Assembly (NCBI GenBank): GCA_017882685.1
Contig: JADGPA010000183.1
Span: forward strand, 1-49,556
Reading direction: 5' to 3'
From: Propionibacteriaceae bacterium
GTDB lineage: Bacteria > Actinomycetota > Actinomycetes > Propionibacteriales > Propionibacteriaceae
DNA length: 49,556 nt
In this document: positions 3,589 through 34,717 of the stretch, in pieces
Position numbering within the stretch: position 1 is the first letter of the stretch
How the letters are laid out: each line of letters begins with the position of its first letter
Position numbers and translations under genes: made by a program
Notes under the pieces: model-generated
What the model was told of the DNA's origin: nothing
Databases searched by the model: none
Seen by the model: the letters and a program-made list of their open reading frames with translations, nothing else

Positions 3589-4190
3589 ACCTGTTCAGCC
3601 TCTACGTTCCCGGCAACACGGTGCTGCACCGGCTCGGCGTCGGCTCGAAGTACCTGCTGCTGCTCGCCCTGACAGTGCCGGCCCTGGTCGTCGGCGACCC
3701 TGGGGTGAGCCTTGCCGCCCTCGTTGCCGGCCTTCTGCTGTTGGCCAGTTGCCGGGCTGGCCTTGCCCACAGCTGGGGGTTGCCCGTTCCGCTCCTGGTA
3801 CTGCTCGCCCTGCTGGCTGCCTACCAGCTCCTTGTCGGCCGACCCGACCTTGCGATCGTTGTGGCCGCCAACCTCGGCACCGCGGTGTACGCGAGCCGTA
3901 TCCTCACCCTCACCACGCCCGGCCCCGCCTTGATCGACGCCCTCGTCGCCGCTGTGCGGCCGCTCGAACGGTTCGGCGTGAAGGCGGACATGGTGGGCCT
4001 TGCCGTCGCGATCATGGTCCGCTCCGTTCCGCTGCTCCTGGACTCCTTCGACCAGGTTCGTCAGGCTGCACGGGCTCGGGGACGCGAGCGCAACCTGTTC
4101 CTGCTGGTGACACCGGTGGTGGTGCGCGCGGTCGGCCAGGCGCAGGCGACCGGCGCAGCCCTCGCCGCCCGCGGACTGGGCGAGTCGTAG
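3585..4190 (+). CDS. bioN: Biotin ECF transporter T component BioN
   Basis: A 201-aa EcfT-family membrane protein linking the S component to the ATPase. It opens with LYVPGNTVLHRLGVGSKYL, typical of EcfT, followed by four to five hydrophobic helices. Two Ala-Arg-Gly motifs needed for coupling to the ATPase are visible: ARARGRERN near residue 163 and AALAARGLGES at the end. The GTG start overlaps the bioM stop. The single-ATPase gene order bioY-bioM-bioN indicates a dedicated biotin importer and not a shared ECF module. Confidence 0.9.
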   Translation: MNLFSLYVPGNTVLHRLGVGSKYLLLLALTVPALVVGDPGVSLAALVAGLLLLASCRAGLAHSWGLPVPLLVLLALLAAYQLLVGRPDLAIVVAANLGTAVYASRILTLTTPGPALIDALVAAVRPLERFGVKADMVGLAVAIMVRSVPLLLDSFDQVRQAARARGRERNLFLLVTPVVVRAVGQAQATGAALAARGLGES

Positions 4191-4205
4191 GTCCTGCCGG
4201 TCTGC

Positions 4206-4282
4206 TCCTCGCAGTTCGTTCCTCACTGCTTGTCGAGACTCCGCCCTTCCCGACCGCTGACGCGGTCGCGGCGGTTGTCGTC
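4206..4282 (+). repeat. Intergenic structured repeat, copy A
   Basis: This copy starts with TCCTCGCAGTTCGTTCCTCA and continues with a CCCTTCCC tract and a hairpin, CGACCGC (4251-4257) pairing with GCGGTCG (4262-4268) around a TGAC loop. It matches copy B at 5224-5300 along its whole length and fills the gap between bioN and the 51-aa gene. Confidence 0.75.
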
Positions 4283-4288
4283 TAGCAT
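4283..4288 (+). promoter_or_regulatory. -10 box, leaderless promoter of 51-aa gene
   Basis: TAGCAT ends 6 nt before the GTG at 4295. There is no ribosome site, so transcription probably starts at the start codon. Confidence 0.55.
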
Positions 4289-4294
4289 GGCGCC

Positions 4295-4450
4295 GTGACC
4301 GAGCCTGCAACGCCGCCCACCACCGGCGTCCCGGATATCGATGCGGCCCTGACCCAGGTGAATCTCGACGGGCCGGTCGCCGACCACCACCAGCAGCTCT
4401 CCGCAGCCGTGGAGGCCCTGCAGCGGGCGTTGCGGACCCCCCAGCAGTGA
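4295..4450 (+). CDS. Conserved small protein (51 aa), Rv1693-like position
   Basis: A 51-aa protein starting MTEPATPPTTGVPDID and ending EALQRALRTPQQ. A Pro/Thr-rich N-terminus leads into one predicted amphipathic helix. Its GTG start has a TAGCAT box 6 nt upstream, and its stop overlaps the tlyA GTG start (GTGA), so tlyA translation depends on it. M. tuberculosis carries a similarly small gene, Rv1693, at the same place between the HAD phosphatase and tlyA. No function is known. Position, coupling and absence of internal stops support a real gene. Confidence 0.75.
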   Translation: MTEPATPPTTGVPDIDAALTQVNLDGPVADHHQQLSAAVEALQRALRTPQQ

Positions 4451-5199
4451 CCGCGCGGCTCGACCGTGCGTTGGTGGAGCGCGGCCTTGCCCGCTCTCGT
4501 GCCCAGGCCCAGGAGGCGATCAGGGACTTGCGCGTGCTGGTCAACGGCCACCAGGTCGCCCGAGCGTCCCAGCCGGTGCTGGCAGGTGACGCGATCGAGC
4601 TGTCAGGCGGCGACCATTACGTCTCCCGTGCCGCCCACAAGCTACTGGGTGCCCTGGCCGGCTCCGGCGTGACGGTGGCAGGGCGCGTGCTCGATGCCGG
4701 TGCGTCGACCGGCGGCTTCACCCAGGTGCTGCTCGAGGCAGGGGCTGCGAAGGTCTACGCGATCGACGTCGGCCACGGCCAGCTTGTCGATGAGCTCCGG
4801 GCTGATCCGCGCGTGATCGTGCGGGAGCGGCTCAACCTGCGTGACCTCACCCTCGGCCACGTAGATGGTGAACCCGTCGACCTCGTTGTGGGCGACGTGT
4901 CCTTCATCTCCCTGCGGCTGCTGTTGGCACCGCTGCTCGCCGTGCTGGCCCCGACCGGCGCTGCGCTCCTGCTGGTTAAGCCGCAGTTCGAGGTGGGCAG
5001 GGGTGGGCTGGATGACCGAGGGGTCGTCCGCGATCCCGTCCGGCGCGCCCGAGCAGTGACCGACGTCGCGGAAGCCGCCGCAGCGCTGGGCTGGCACGCG
5101 GCCTGGCAAGCGGAGAGCCAGCTGCCCGGTGAGTCCGGCAATCTGGAGTACTTCCTTCACTTGGTGCCCGGCACGCCCGATCTCGCGACCGCGGGCTGA
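4447..5199 (+). CDS. tlyA: TlyA-type rRNA 2'-O-methyltransferase
   Basis: A 250-aa protein combining an N-terminal S4 RNA-binding domain (TARLDRALVERGLARSRAQA, residues ~1-60) with a Rossmann FtsJ/RrmJ-like methyltransferase. The S-adenosylmethionine loop is VLDAGASTGGFTQVLLEAGA (~80-100), followed by VYAIDVGHGQL, DVSFISLRLLL and LLLVKPQFE, where the Lys belongs to the catalytic set. TlyA in mycobacteria methylates cytidines of 16S and 23S rRNA and its presence gives capreomycin sensitivity. The GTG start overlaps the preceding small gene. The standard actinobacterial neighbours (nadK, recN) follow after a repeat-filled gap. Confidence 0.93.
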   Translation: MTARLDRALVERGLARSRAQAQEAIRDLRVLVNGHQVARASQPVLAGDAIELSGGDHYVSRAAHKLLGALAGSGVTVAGRVLDAGASTGGFTQVLLEAGAAKVYAIDVGHGQLVDELRADPRVIVRERLNLRDLTLGHVDGEPVDLVVGDVSFISLRLLLAPLLAVLAPTGAALLLVKPQFEVGRGGLDDRGVVRDPVRRARAVTDVAEAAAALGWHAAWQAESQLPGESGNLEYFLHLVPGTPDLATAG

Positions 5200-5300
5200 T
5201 CCTCGCAGTTCGTTCCTCACTGTTCCTCGCAGTTCGTTCCTCACTGCTCGTCAGGACTTCTCCCTTCCCGGTCGCTGGCGCGACCGTGGCGGTCGGCGTC
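5200..5300 (+). repeat. Intergenic structured repeat, copy B with duplicated head
   Basis: The 23-bp head found in copy A occurs twice here, at 5200-5222 and 5224-5246. The rest follows to about 5300, with a hairpin CGGTCGC (5269-5275) and GCGACCG (5280-5286) around TGGC. Bases 5300-5356 hold further degenerate CTCGTCAAGACT-like pieces and no gene. Confidence 0.75.
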
Positions 5301-5356
5301 TGCTCGTCAAGACTCGTCGAGTTGCAGCCGCTGACGCGTCTGCACTGCTCCTCGTC

Positions 5357-5362
5357 TAGGGT
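5357..5362 (+). promoter_or_regulatory. -10 box, leaderless promoter of nadK
   Basis: TAGGGT ends 6 nt before the nadK GTG; no ribosome site is present between them. Confidence 0.6.
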
Positions 5363-5368
5363 TGGTCC

Positions 5369-6292
5369 GTGAACCCGCAGCGTCGGCACGTGGCCGTAAC
5401 CCTCCACCCGTTGCGTCCGGCGGCCCTCGAGGCCGCGGCGGAGTTCATCACCGGTATGAACTCGCGTGGGATCACCTGCCTGGCGTCTCCCGAGGACCTC
5501 GCGGCGCTGGCTGCCCGCGTCCCGGGTGCGGACCTGGACGATCTGAACGGTGGGGACTGCGAACTGATGGTGGTATTCGGCGGCGACGGCAACATCCTGC
5601 GCGCGGCCGAGTGGTCACTGCCCCGGCAAGTCCCCGTGCTGGGGGTGAACCTCGGCCATGTCGGGTTCCTCGCCGAGCTGGAATCCTCGCAAGTGGGGTC
5701 GCTGATCGAACATGTCGCGCGCGGCGACTACGAGGTCGAGGAGCGTATGACCATCGACACCGTCGTCCGCGCGGAGCGGGGGGGCGAAGAGCTGTGGCGG
5801 TCGTTCGCCATCAACGAGGTGTCGGTGGAGAAGCTGGCACGGGAGCGGATGATCGAGGTGCTGGTGCGAATCGACGACCGGCCGTTGTCCCGCTGGGCCA
5901 CCGACGGGGTGCTCGTGGCCACCCCCACCGGCTCCACCGCCTACGCGTTCTCCGCCCACGGTCCGGTGATCTGGCCGGAACTGAGCGCCCTGCTGCTGGT
6001 GCCGCTGAGTGCGCACGCCCTGTTCGCCCGCCCGCTGGTGTTGAGTGAACGCACGGTCGTCTCGATCGAGGTGCTGCCGGGCGGCAGCCCCGGCGGGGTC
6101 GTCTGGTGCGACGGCCGGCGCACCACCGACGTGACCGGCGGTATGGAGATCGAGGCGAGGCTGGGGGAGCACAAGCTGCTGCTGGCTCGCACCGGCGAGC
6201 AGCCGTTCGTGACCCGACTGGTTCGCAAGTTCGGGCTGCCCGTCGACGGCTGGCGTGGCGCAGCCGAGAGGAACGCCACCCATGCTCGCTGA
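5369..6292 (+). CDS. nadK: NAD kinase
   Basis: A 307-aa cytosolic enzyme that phosphorylates NAD to NADP using ATP or polyphosphate. The diagnostic motifs are VFGGDGNILRAAEW (~70), where the Asp is catalytic, GVNLGHVGFLAEL (~93), ATDGVLVATPTGSTAYAFSA (~180) and the C-terminal strand region GGVVWCDGRR. The GTG start is fixed by the immediately preceding TAGGGT -10 box and by the N-terminal strand HVAVTLHP. It overlaps recN by 11 bases, so nadK and recN are co-transcribed, as in most actinobacteria. Confidence 0.94.
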   Translation: MNPQRRHVAVTLHPLRPAALEAAAEFITGMNSRGITCLASPEDLAALAARVPGADLDDLNGGDCELMVVFGGDGNILRAAEWSLPRQVPVLGVNLGHVGFLAELESSQVGSLIEHVARGDYEVEERMTIDTVVRAERGGEELWRSFAINEVSVEKLARERMIEVLVRIDDRPLSRWATDGVLVATPTGSTAYAFSAHGPVIWPELSALLLVPLSAHALFARPLVLSERTVVSIEVLPGGSPGGVVWCDGRRTTDVTGGMEIEARLGEHKLLLARTGEQPFVTRLVRKFGLPVDGWRGAAERNATHAR

Positions 6293-33477: not shown

Positions 33478-33503
33478 CGAACCCGACGCGTCCCCACACC
33501 AGG

Positions 33504-33563
33504 CGCCCCCGAAACGGAAGGACGCCCCCGATCTTTCGCGGGCGTCCTTCCGTTTCGGGGGCG
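33504..33563. repeat. 60-bp palindromic element, copy 1
   Basis: Arms 33504-33527 and 33540-33563 are perfect 24-bp complements around a 12-nt loop. A relative of the same length lies at 34658-34717. It can end transcription from either side. Confidence 0.85.
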
Positions 33564-34584: not shown

Positions 34585-34657
34585 CCCCCTCGGACCCATC
34601 GCGCTCCACCCGCGGACCCGTCCCGTTTCGCCCGGCGGCGACGCTCCCGCCAACAGA

Positions 34658-34717
34658 CGCCCCCGAACCCGAAGGACGCCCGCGATCCTTCGGGGGCTTC
34701 CTTCTGATTCGGGGGCG
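34658..34717. repeat. 60-bp palindromic element, copy 2
   Basis: Arms pair over 10 + 6 + 4 bp with a CCC/TGA internal loop and one mismatch. Sequence and length match copy 1, but this copy is partly decayed. Confidence 0.8.

Follow-up and report, generated by a model that had tools for sequence, protein, structure and literature searches.

The repeats that flank tlyA in a 49,556-nucleotide stretch of a Propionibacteriaceae genome (contig JADGPA010000183.1; hereafter the window) are best read as copies of a short, gene-less mobile element made of two hairpins, similar in kind to PATEs and REPs and recognized as folded DNA. We put the probability of this reading at roughly 0.55. Four observations bear on it: the dispersal of the units, their presence or absence at orthologous sites, the constraint on their structure, and their site preference.

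The repeat block around tlyA

Two segments of the window, 4185 to 4283 and 5203 to 5301, align without gaps at 79% identity. The element of about 77 bp that the initial annotation had reported twice around a small ORF and tlyA is thus real, but its copy limits (4206 to 4282 and 5224 to 5300) have to be moved outward, since the junctions give 4204 to 4283 for unit A and 5222 to 5301 for unit B. Both are complete two-hairpin units on the forward strand, as are all features described here, and score 69.7 and 60.1 bits, respectively, with R1, a covariance model of the unit. The head had rightly been seen a third time: its 19-nt core occurs without a mismatch at 4210, 5204, and 5228, whereas shuffled sequences, even with up to three mismatches allowed, averaged 0.01 occurrences and never reached three. 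This head-only partial copy lies at 5198 to 5221 and begins right behind the T in the stop codon region of tlyA. What had been overlooked is a further, headless hairpin 2 module, unit C, found by its box pattern at 5302 to 5357 (70.1 bits).

In unit A, hairpin 1 (4211 to 4229) consists of GCAGT, a 9-nt loop, and ACTGC, with its pairing kept across units. The AGAC at 4236 to 4239, which may be guide-like, pairs with GTCT at 4280 to 4283, as seen in helix 1 of the covariation analysis and in the unit pairing counts. Hairpin 2, recognized from sequence and box pattern in both units and from covariation in unit A, reads CGACCGC-TGAC-GCGGTCG at 4251 to 4268 and CGGTCGC-TGGC-GCGACCG in unit B at 5269 to 5286. 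The two stems (4251 to 4257 with 4262 to 4268, and 5269 to 5275 with 5280 to 5286) are exactly as first described, including the two base pairs altered on both sides between the copies.

Unit A lies upstream of the small ORF (51 amino acids; 4295 to 4450), which overlaps the start of the tlyA-like gene (4447 to 5199; S4 and FtsJ domains by domain models). The unit is abutted by TAGCAT at 4283 to 4288, a −10-like box of the small ORF that occurs in genome G001 too, there with no unit in front of it. The block 3′ of tlyA extends from 5198 to 5357, and its last letter, the end of unit C, is the T of TAGGGT (5357 to 5362), a −10-like box of the downstream NAD kinase gene, nadK (5369 to 6292; domain models). 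Small-ORF-like sequence was also seen by eye upstream of tlyA in five loci of the genus (L195, L196, L198, L200, and L203). Elsewhere in the window, a 73-bp sequence that resembles a long-stem palindrome is present in two copies 84% identical (33491 to 33563 and 34645 to 34717), and positions 1 to 131 hold a 62-bp stretch in two tandem copies (92%) that is apparently coding.

Folding of single copies was unremarkable, with z scores of −1.45, −0.71, and −0.07 on the forward strand and −1.29 and −3.10 on the reverse strand in five folds. The case therefore rests on further copies and not on units A and B.

Distribution of the unit

We ran R1 on 30 genomes of the genus, probably Propionicimonas, to which the window's genome (G000; 215 contigs, 88.9% complete) belongs. 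The initial annotation had proposed a covariance model, a genome search, and covariation statistics, and these brought to light further copies in G000 and its relatives, with the stem kept. Matches at an E value of 0.1 were found in 18 of the 30 genomes. Six of these have one or two modules, and 12 have at least five (32 in G000, 29 in G008, 24 in G001, 23 in G015, 13 in G024, 11 each in G026 and G004, 9 in G021, 8 in G011, 7 in G027, 6 in G017, and 5 in G028). From 124 matches we kept 116 modules, leaving out one that a contig end truncates and, apart from L227 and L247, the seven with the lowest scores; 94 of the 116 had both ends, 86 remained after removal of near-identical copies, and 76 of those had a recognized apex.

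A draw of 147 genomes of the family, genus members included, was searched with stricter filters; outside the genus, six genomes gave one weak match each, with E values of 4e-4 to 1e-2, and four of the six matches were partial. The three of these matches that were read by eye are not units, L191 resembling coding DNA and L192 and L193 resembling terminator hairpins. The plasmid search gave a single 31-nt match, in a Halomicrobium plasmid, and the phage search gave no unit match. Within the genomes searched, the unit is dispersed, partly tandem, and confined to one genus. Predicted genes take up 86% of the loci, yet most units (71 of 86) lie mainly outside them; the genes were predicted with a crude rule of our own, and some of the 15 units called mostly intragenic clearly owe this to over-extended ORFs. 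Of 74 units, 51 share their strand with the gene downstream.

Units are missing at matching sites of relatives. The gap between tlyA and nadK is 172 nt in G000 versus 13 nt in G001 and G027, where it reads TAATGTTTGGTCC or TAGTGTTTGGTCC before GTG, and the site before the small ORF shows the same presence/absence behavior. None of the 26 other loci of the genus has a module in the tlyA region (best match, E value of 0.094), and for these sites gain of units is a simpler account than loss in relatives. The unit at the ecfT site is likewise absent from the 26 other loci of the genus, and G000 has a unit at the ebfC site where its near relative G027 has none (EbfC 98% identical; read by eye). Before the TAGGCT box of a metallo-hydrolase-like gene, units with different arms are present in G001, G015, G017, G024, and G026, and there is none in G000, G007, G011, G014, or G021 (by eye). 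At the hrcA promoter, the units of G001, G015, and G024 have similar arms, which suggests that these were inherited. Upstream of nadK in G011, locus L197 carries GGCGTCGTCTAGTGT, which resembles the right end of the unit without its hairpins and is possibly a scar.

Anatomy of the unit

Across genomes, the consensus begins after CT with GNTCCTCG (at times ANTCC), followed by hairpin 1, CTCGTC, A or G, and AGAC; about 5 nt further on comes hairpin 2, then about 5 nt and the terminal GTCT. The length is close to 80 bp, 84 of the 94 units with both ends measuring 76 to 82 bp. Units have palindromes near both ends, have no terminal inverted repeats, and are too short for a gene. In 33 of the 116 modules another module follows directly, and such tandem neighbors have one CT in common.

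The GCAGT and ACTGC arms of hairpin 1, with 9 nt between them, are replaced in other copies by GCGGT/ACCGC, GTGGT/ACCAC, or GGGGT/ACCCC, and some copies have a GCTGAC-type apex like that of hairpin 2. In hairpin 2, the apex (CGC-loop-GCG) is mostly fixed and the feet are fixed, while the arms vary. The fourth pair from its apex is a recurrent mismatch, formed in 45 of 76 units, compared with 70 for the fifth pair and 73 for the sixth. The palindrome is directly preceded by CGTC, in the pattern CGTC[ACG][AG]G, in 78 of 86 units. AGAC, some 5 nt off the foot of hairpin 2, and GTCT are exact in 64 of 86 units; three units have paired changes (AGAG/CTCT in L235 and AGAT/ATCT in L269 and L296), and several have unpaired ones (for example, AGTC/GTCT in L258 and L301 and AGAC/GTAT in L256).

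Pairing of the arms

A MAFFT alignment (A1) was made of 20 sequences picked by eye from box-pattern matches, with coding false positives left out; arm pairing was no criterion in choosing them. In the proposed structure, 89.1% of the cells of A1 were paired, and 11 of 17 pairs showed changes on both sides. The covariation score was 0.474, against an average of 0.147 for shuffled alignments and at most 0.124 for slid structures.

We also compared pairing within and between units, which needs no alignment of the arms. For hairpin 2, an average of 6.18 of 8 positions paired within a unit versus 4.14 between units (76 units). Among 39 distinct arms the values were 6.46 and 3.90, and no shuffle exceeded 4.6, in a permutation in which related units are not independent and kinship is handled only by removing similar arms. 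For hairpin 1, the figures were 4.82 of 5 versus 4.28 for the TTCG type (33 units) and 2.54 of 4 versus 1.83 for the GCTGAC type (41 units). The letters of the arms thus change from copy to copy, but nearly every copy keeps its arms paired. The hint of compensatory change that two copies had given is borne out by many, and the constraint on structure proposed from those two copies is upheld by both the covariation score and the permutation.

Junctions and −10-like boxes

CT precedes the unit at 37 of 54 independent left junctions, versus a background of 5.2%, and the unit itself ends in GTCT. Of the 116 modules, 81 had enough flank for a terminal 3′ junction to be read (the script misplaces some ends, for example, in L186, L249, and L230); the next base was A at 46, G at 33, and another base at 2. 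At 38 of the 46 A-type junctions the unit runs into TANNNT, compared with 170 of 2,037 CTA triplets in the same loci. With G008 set aside, CT↓ANNNT (the arrow marking the junction) is found at 38 of 61 terminal junctions, the two followed by neither A nor G being outside the 61, versus 43 of 1,571 other noncoding CT↓R sites; G000 alone contributes 12 of 21.

In many copies, then, the 3′ end of the unit directly adjoins the T↓A step of a TANNNT box, and such boxes stand before housekeeping genes. Ten downstream genes chosen from the 38 sites match models of the RNase J family, TopA, LigA, FabG-like proteins, cardiolipin synthase, PyrR, FtsE, trigger factor, GatC, and HrcA. Judging from its motif, place, and conservation, the box is likely to be a −10 element: TANNNT stands before nadK in all eight genus loci read. 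ATG or GTG follows the box by 5 to 9 nt at 23 of 38 sites, as leaderless transcripts would have it (61 of 169 CTANNNT sites in a control that is not clean, as it contains the 38). A canonical −35 element within the unit was considered and rejected, the apex TGAC lying, by eye, roughly 3 nt farther from the box than such an element should.

G008 behaves differently, with none of its 18 terminal junctions at a TANNNT box. Its units lie within another palindrome, which reads TTCGACARGCTC-A-GGGA when uninterrupted (A in 19 of 21); GGGA follows 13 of 19 modules, and ACARGCTCT precedes 7 of 19. In loci L383 to L402 of this genome, the palindrome TTCGACARGCTCAGGGATC is frequent, the searched form occurring uninterrupted 21 times in 376 kb, and it hosts several units.

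The two bases before the cut could be read at several empty sites. They are TT at the nadK site of G001 and G027, AT at the hydrolase site of G000, G007, and G021, and CA in 19 of 21 uninterrupted host palindromes of G008; none of these is CT. PATEs insert without duplicating their target; in the unit, the two junctions share no more than CT (or T), which at several empty sites did not preexist. In IS200/IS605 elements the left flank should preexist as the target motif, so that the absence of the left CT from readable empty sites argues against the plain IS200/IS605 rule.

Y1 transposase loci

Y1 genes are present in 10 of the 12 genomes with at least five modules and in 4 of the 18 others, by a hand count that ignores relatedness. 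We do not use this co-occurrence as support because no fetched Y1 locus carries a unit: at an E value of 0.01, none of the 20 loci examined out of 21 Y1 genes found had a match (best, 16.1 bits; E value of 0.026). RAYT was therefore rejected as a partner, and no IS605-type parent of the unit palindromes was found among these loci. A search for a Y1 gene in unit-rich G008 (29 modules) and G026 (11 modules) gave no match. The 20 loci instead carry terminal repeats of the GGGGAC type, 19 clearly and L323 weakly. Loci L305 to L324 have TIRYT-like Y1 genes flanked by such repeats, several in a row at L309 and L312; PMC3733652 describes TIRYT and also a GGGGWSAS motif.

What moves the unit

That the unit is mobile is very likely, and an enzyme that reads it as folded DNA is probable; whether the moving enzyme is of the HUH type is more doubtful, the odds lying somewhat against it. 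A trans-acting enzyme would read the folded single strand through loop, mismatch, and foot and not through arm sequence, and with recognition by shape the arms may therefore drift as long as pairing is kept. Pairing of AGAC with GTCT might help to place the cut, much as guide and cleavage sequences do in IS200/IS605 and REP/RAYT systems. Insertion at −10 boxes could make use of opened promoter DNA or could simply be what selection tolerates. A more specific proposal, and an unlikely one, is that insertion is aimed at borders between single- and double-stranded DNA, which would be the −12/−11 border of a promoter or, in G008, the loop-stem border of a palindrome; the promoter border would be the upstream edge of the transcription bubble, and insertion would be coupled to promoter opening. 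Several points tell against the preferred reading, among them the Y1 results and the absence of the left CT from readable empty sites. Empty sites would also follow from loss in relatives, AGAC does not adjoin the foot of hairpin 2 and unpaired guide changes exist, and the terminal junctions of G008 are never at TANNNT.

The main competitor, itself unlikely, is a recombinase other than HUH (Y1) that exchanges a short CT core on double-stranded or folded DNA and replaces the target dinucleotide. It would account for CT at both ends where empty sites have TT, AT, or CA and for the one CT shared by tandem units, but a double-strand mechanism leaves the fully variable arms unexplained. IS110 (PF01548) is a CT-core family, and a nonautonomous IS110 element was rejected since G008, G015, G027, and G028 had no IS110 transposase match and G000 had only a fragment below threshold. 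The fixed length, fixed ends, and strong site preference of the unit speak against an origin with no dedicated enzyme, in which palindromes arise, spread, and stay paired through template switching, slippage, and gene conversion. We hold this to be quite improbable, even with the tandem arrays and one apparent microhomology junction (CCGA↓GACTCC, read by eye in G001 next to the hydrolase gene) in its favor.

Two further explanations assign the unit a function at its site. It might be cis-regulatory promoter DNA, serving as an upstream half or as the target of a protein that reads structure, and be kept by selection and spread by recombination. The abutment on TANNNT, the same-strand downstream genes, and the similar units kept at the hrcA promoter of three genomes would fit, but most sites are not common to different species, G instead of A follows 33 of 79 terminal A/G junctions, the G008 units lie in another palindrome, and the arms offer a binding protein no fixed sequence; we consider this account improbable. 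Of the two alternatives raised in the initial annotation, a palindrome-borne element fits, whereas an RNA finds no support. Covariation suits RNA and single-stranded DNA equally, but Rfam 15 at its gathering score found only two tRNAs in the window, those units that abut a −10-like box should lie upstream of the expected transcript, sites turn over between species, and single copies fold little better than shuffles. A riboswitch, attenuator, small RNA, or terminator is accordingly very improbable.

If the unit is a mobile element read as folded DNA, its copies amount to a natural experiment on the features that such an enzyme needs, since pairing, apex, and feet are retained in copies whose arms are completely different. 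With the site preference, promoter-coupled insertion of folded DNA would become testable, and the preference shows how, within one genus, many housekeeping promoters have acquired a foreign upstream half. Insertion at the bubble edge, if true, would be transposition coupled to promoter opening, swapping the upstream half of housekeeping promoters.

Comparison with known systems

The initial annotation had stated that no named family matches. No exact family was found, and our literature search returned no paper on the two-hairpin unit, but related named kinds exist. Among other systems considered, integron attC sites have GTTRRRY and RYYYAAC boxes. The ends of IS200/IS605 elements resemble the unit in having a hairpin near each end and, 5′ of hairpin 2, a motif that can pair with the 3′ end (PMC6006769); the passages on these ends in PMC8266576 and PMC6006769 place the guide 5′ of the hairpin. 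The unit differs in that its left flank does not preexist, its motif is away from the hairpin foot, and no transposase gene was found in or beside a unit.

GTAG REPs, as portrayed in the relevant parts of PMC8266576 and PMC6006769, share with the unit intergenic hairpins, a short motif on the 5′ side of the palindrome, and CT, the cut site of the TnpA-REP enzymes studied there; one REP group also has a stem mismatch. The unit consensus, however, has CGTC in the place of GTAG and two hairpins per unit, and the Y1 genes of the genus carry other repeats, none being flanked by the unit. CGTC-tagged REPs, going by the sections on them in PMC3733652, have CGTC directly 5′ of a palindrome, associate with other palindromes, and are without a known dedicated transposase, which that source treats as an open question. 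They are single palindromes of 20 to 40 bp with stems of 8 to 9 bp that start with AT and mostly a CCA tail, whereas the unit has about 80 bp, two hairpins, and AGAC…GTCT ends; the five phyla listed for them in those sections do not include Actinobacteria.

PATEs of Haloquadratum, in the account given in the pertinent part of PMC3119063, are like the unit in their gene-less length, their palindromes near both ends without terminal inverted repeats, and their many copies, seen at sites where a relative has none. Their palindromes resemble those of IS605-type transposons of the same organisms; the unit, in contrast, has arms that differ completely between copies, is about 80 bp long, is often tandem, and prefers −10-like boxes. 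What is unusual about it is that its arms vary fully and that it favors the upstream edge of a −10-like box; REP copies within one genome are described in a passage of PMC6006769 as varying only slightly in sequence and length. The repeats around tlyA are no chance pair; they belong to a family of miniature two-hairpin repeats at the level of a genus, very probably mobile, that stands nearest to PATE and REP and fits the full definition of neither.
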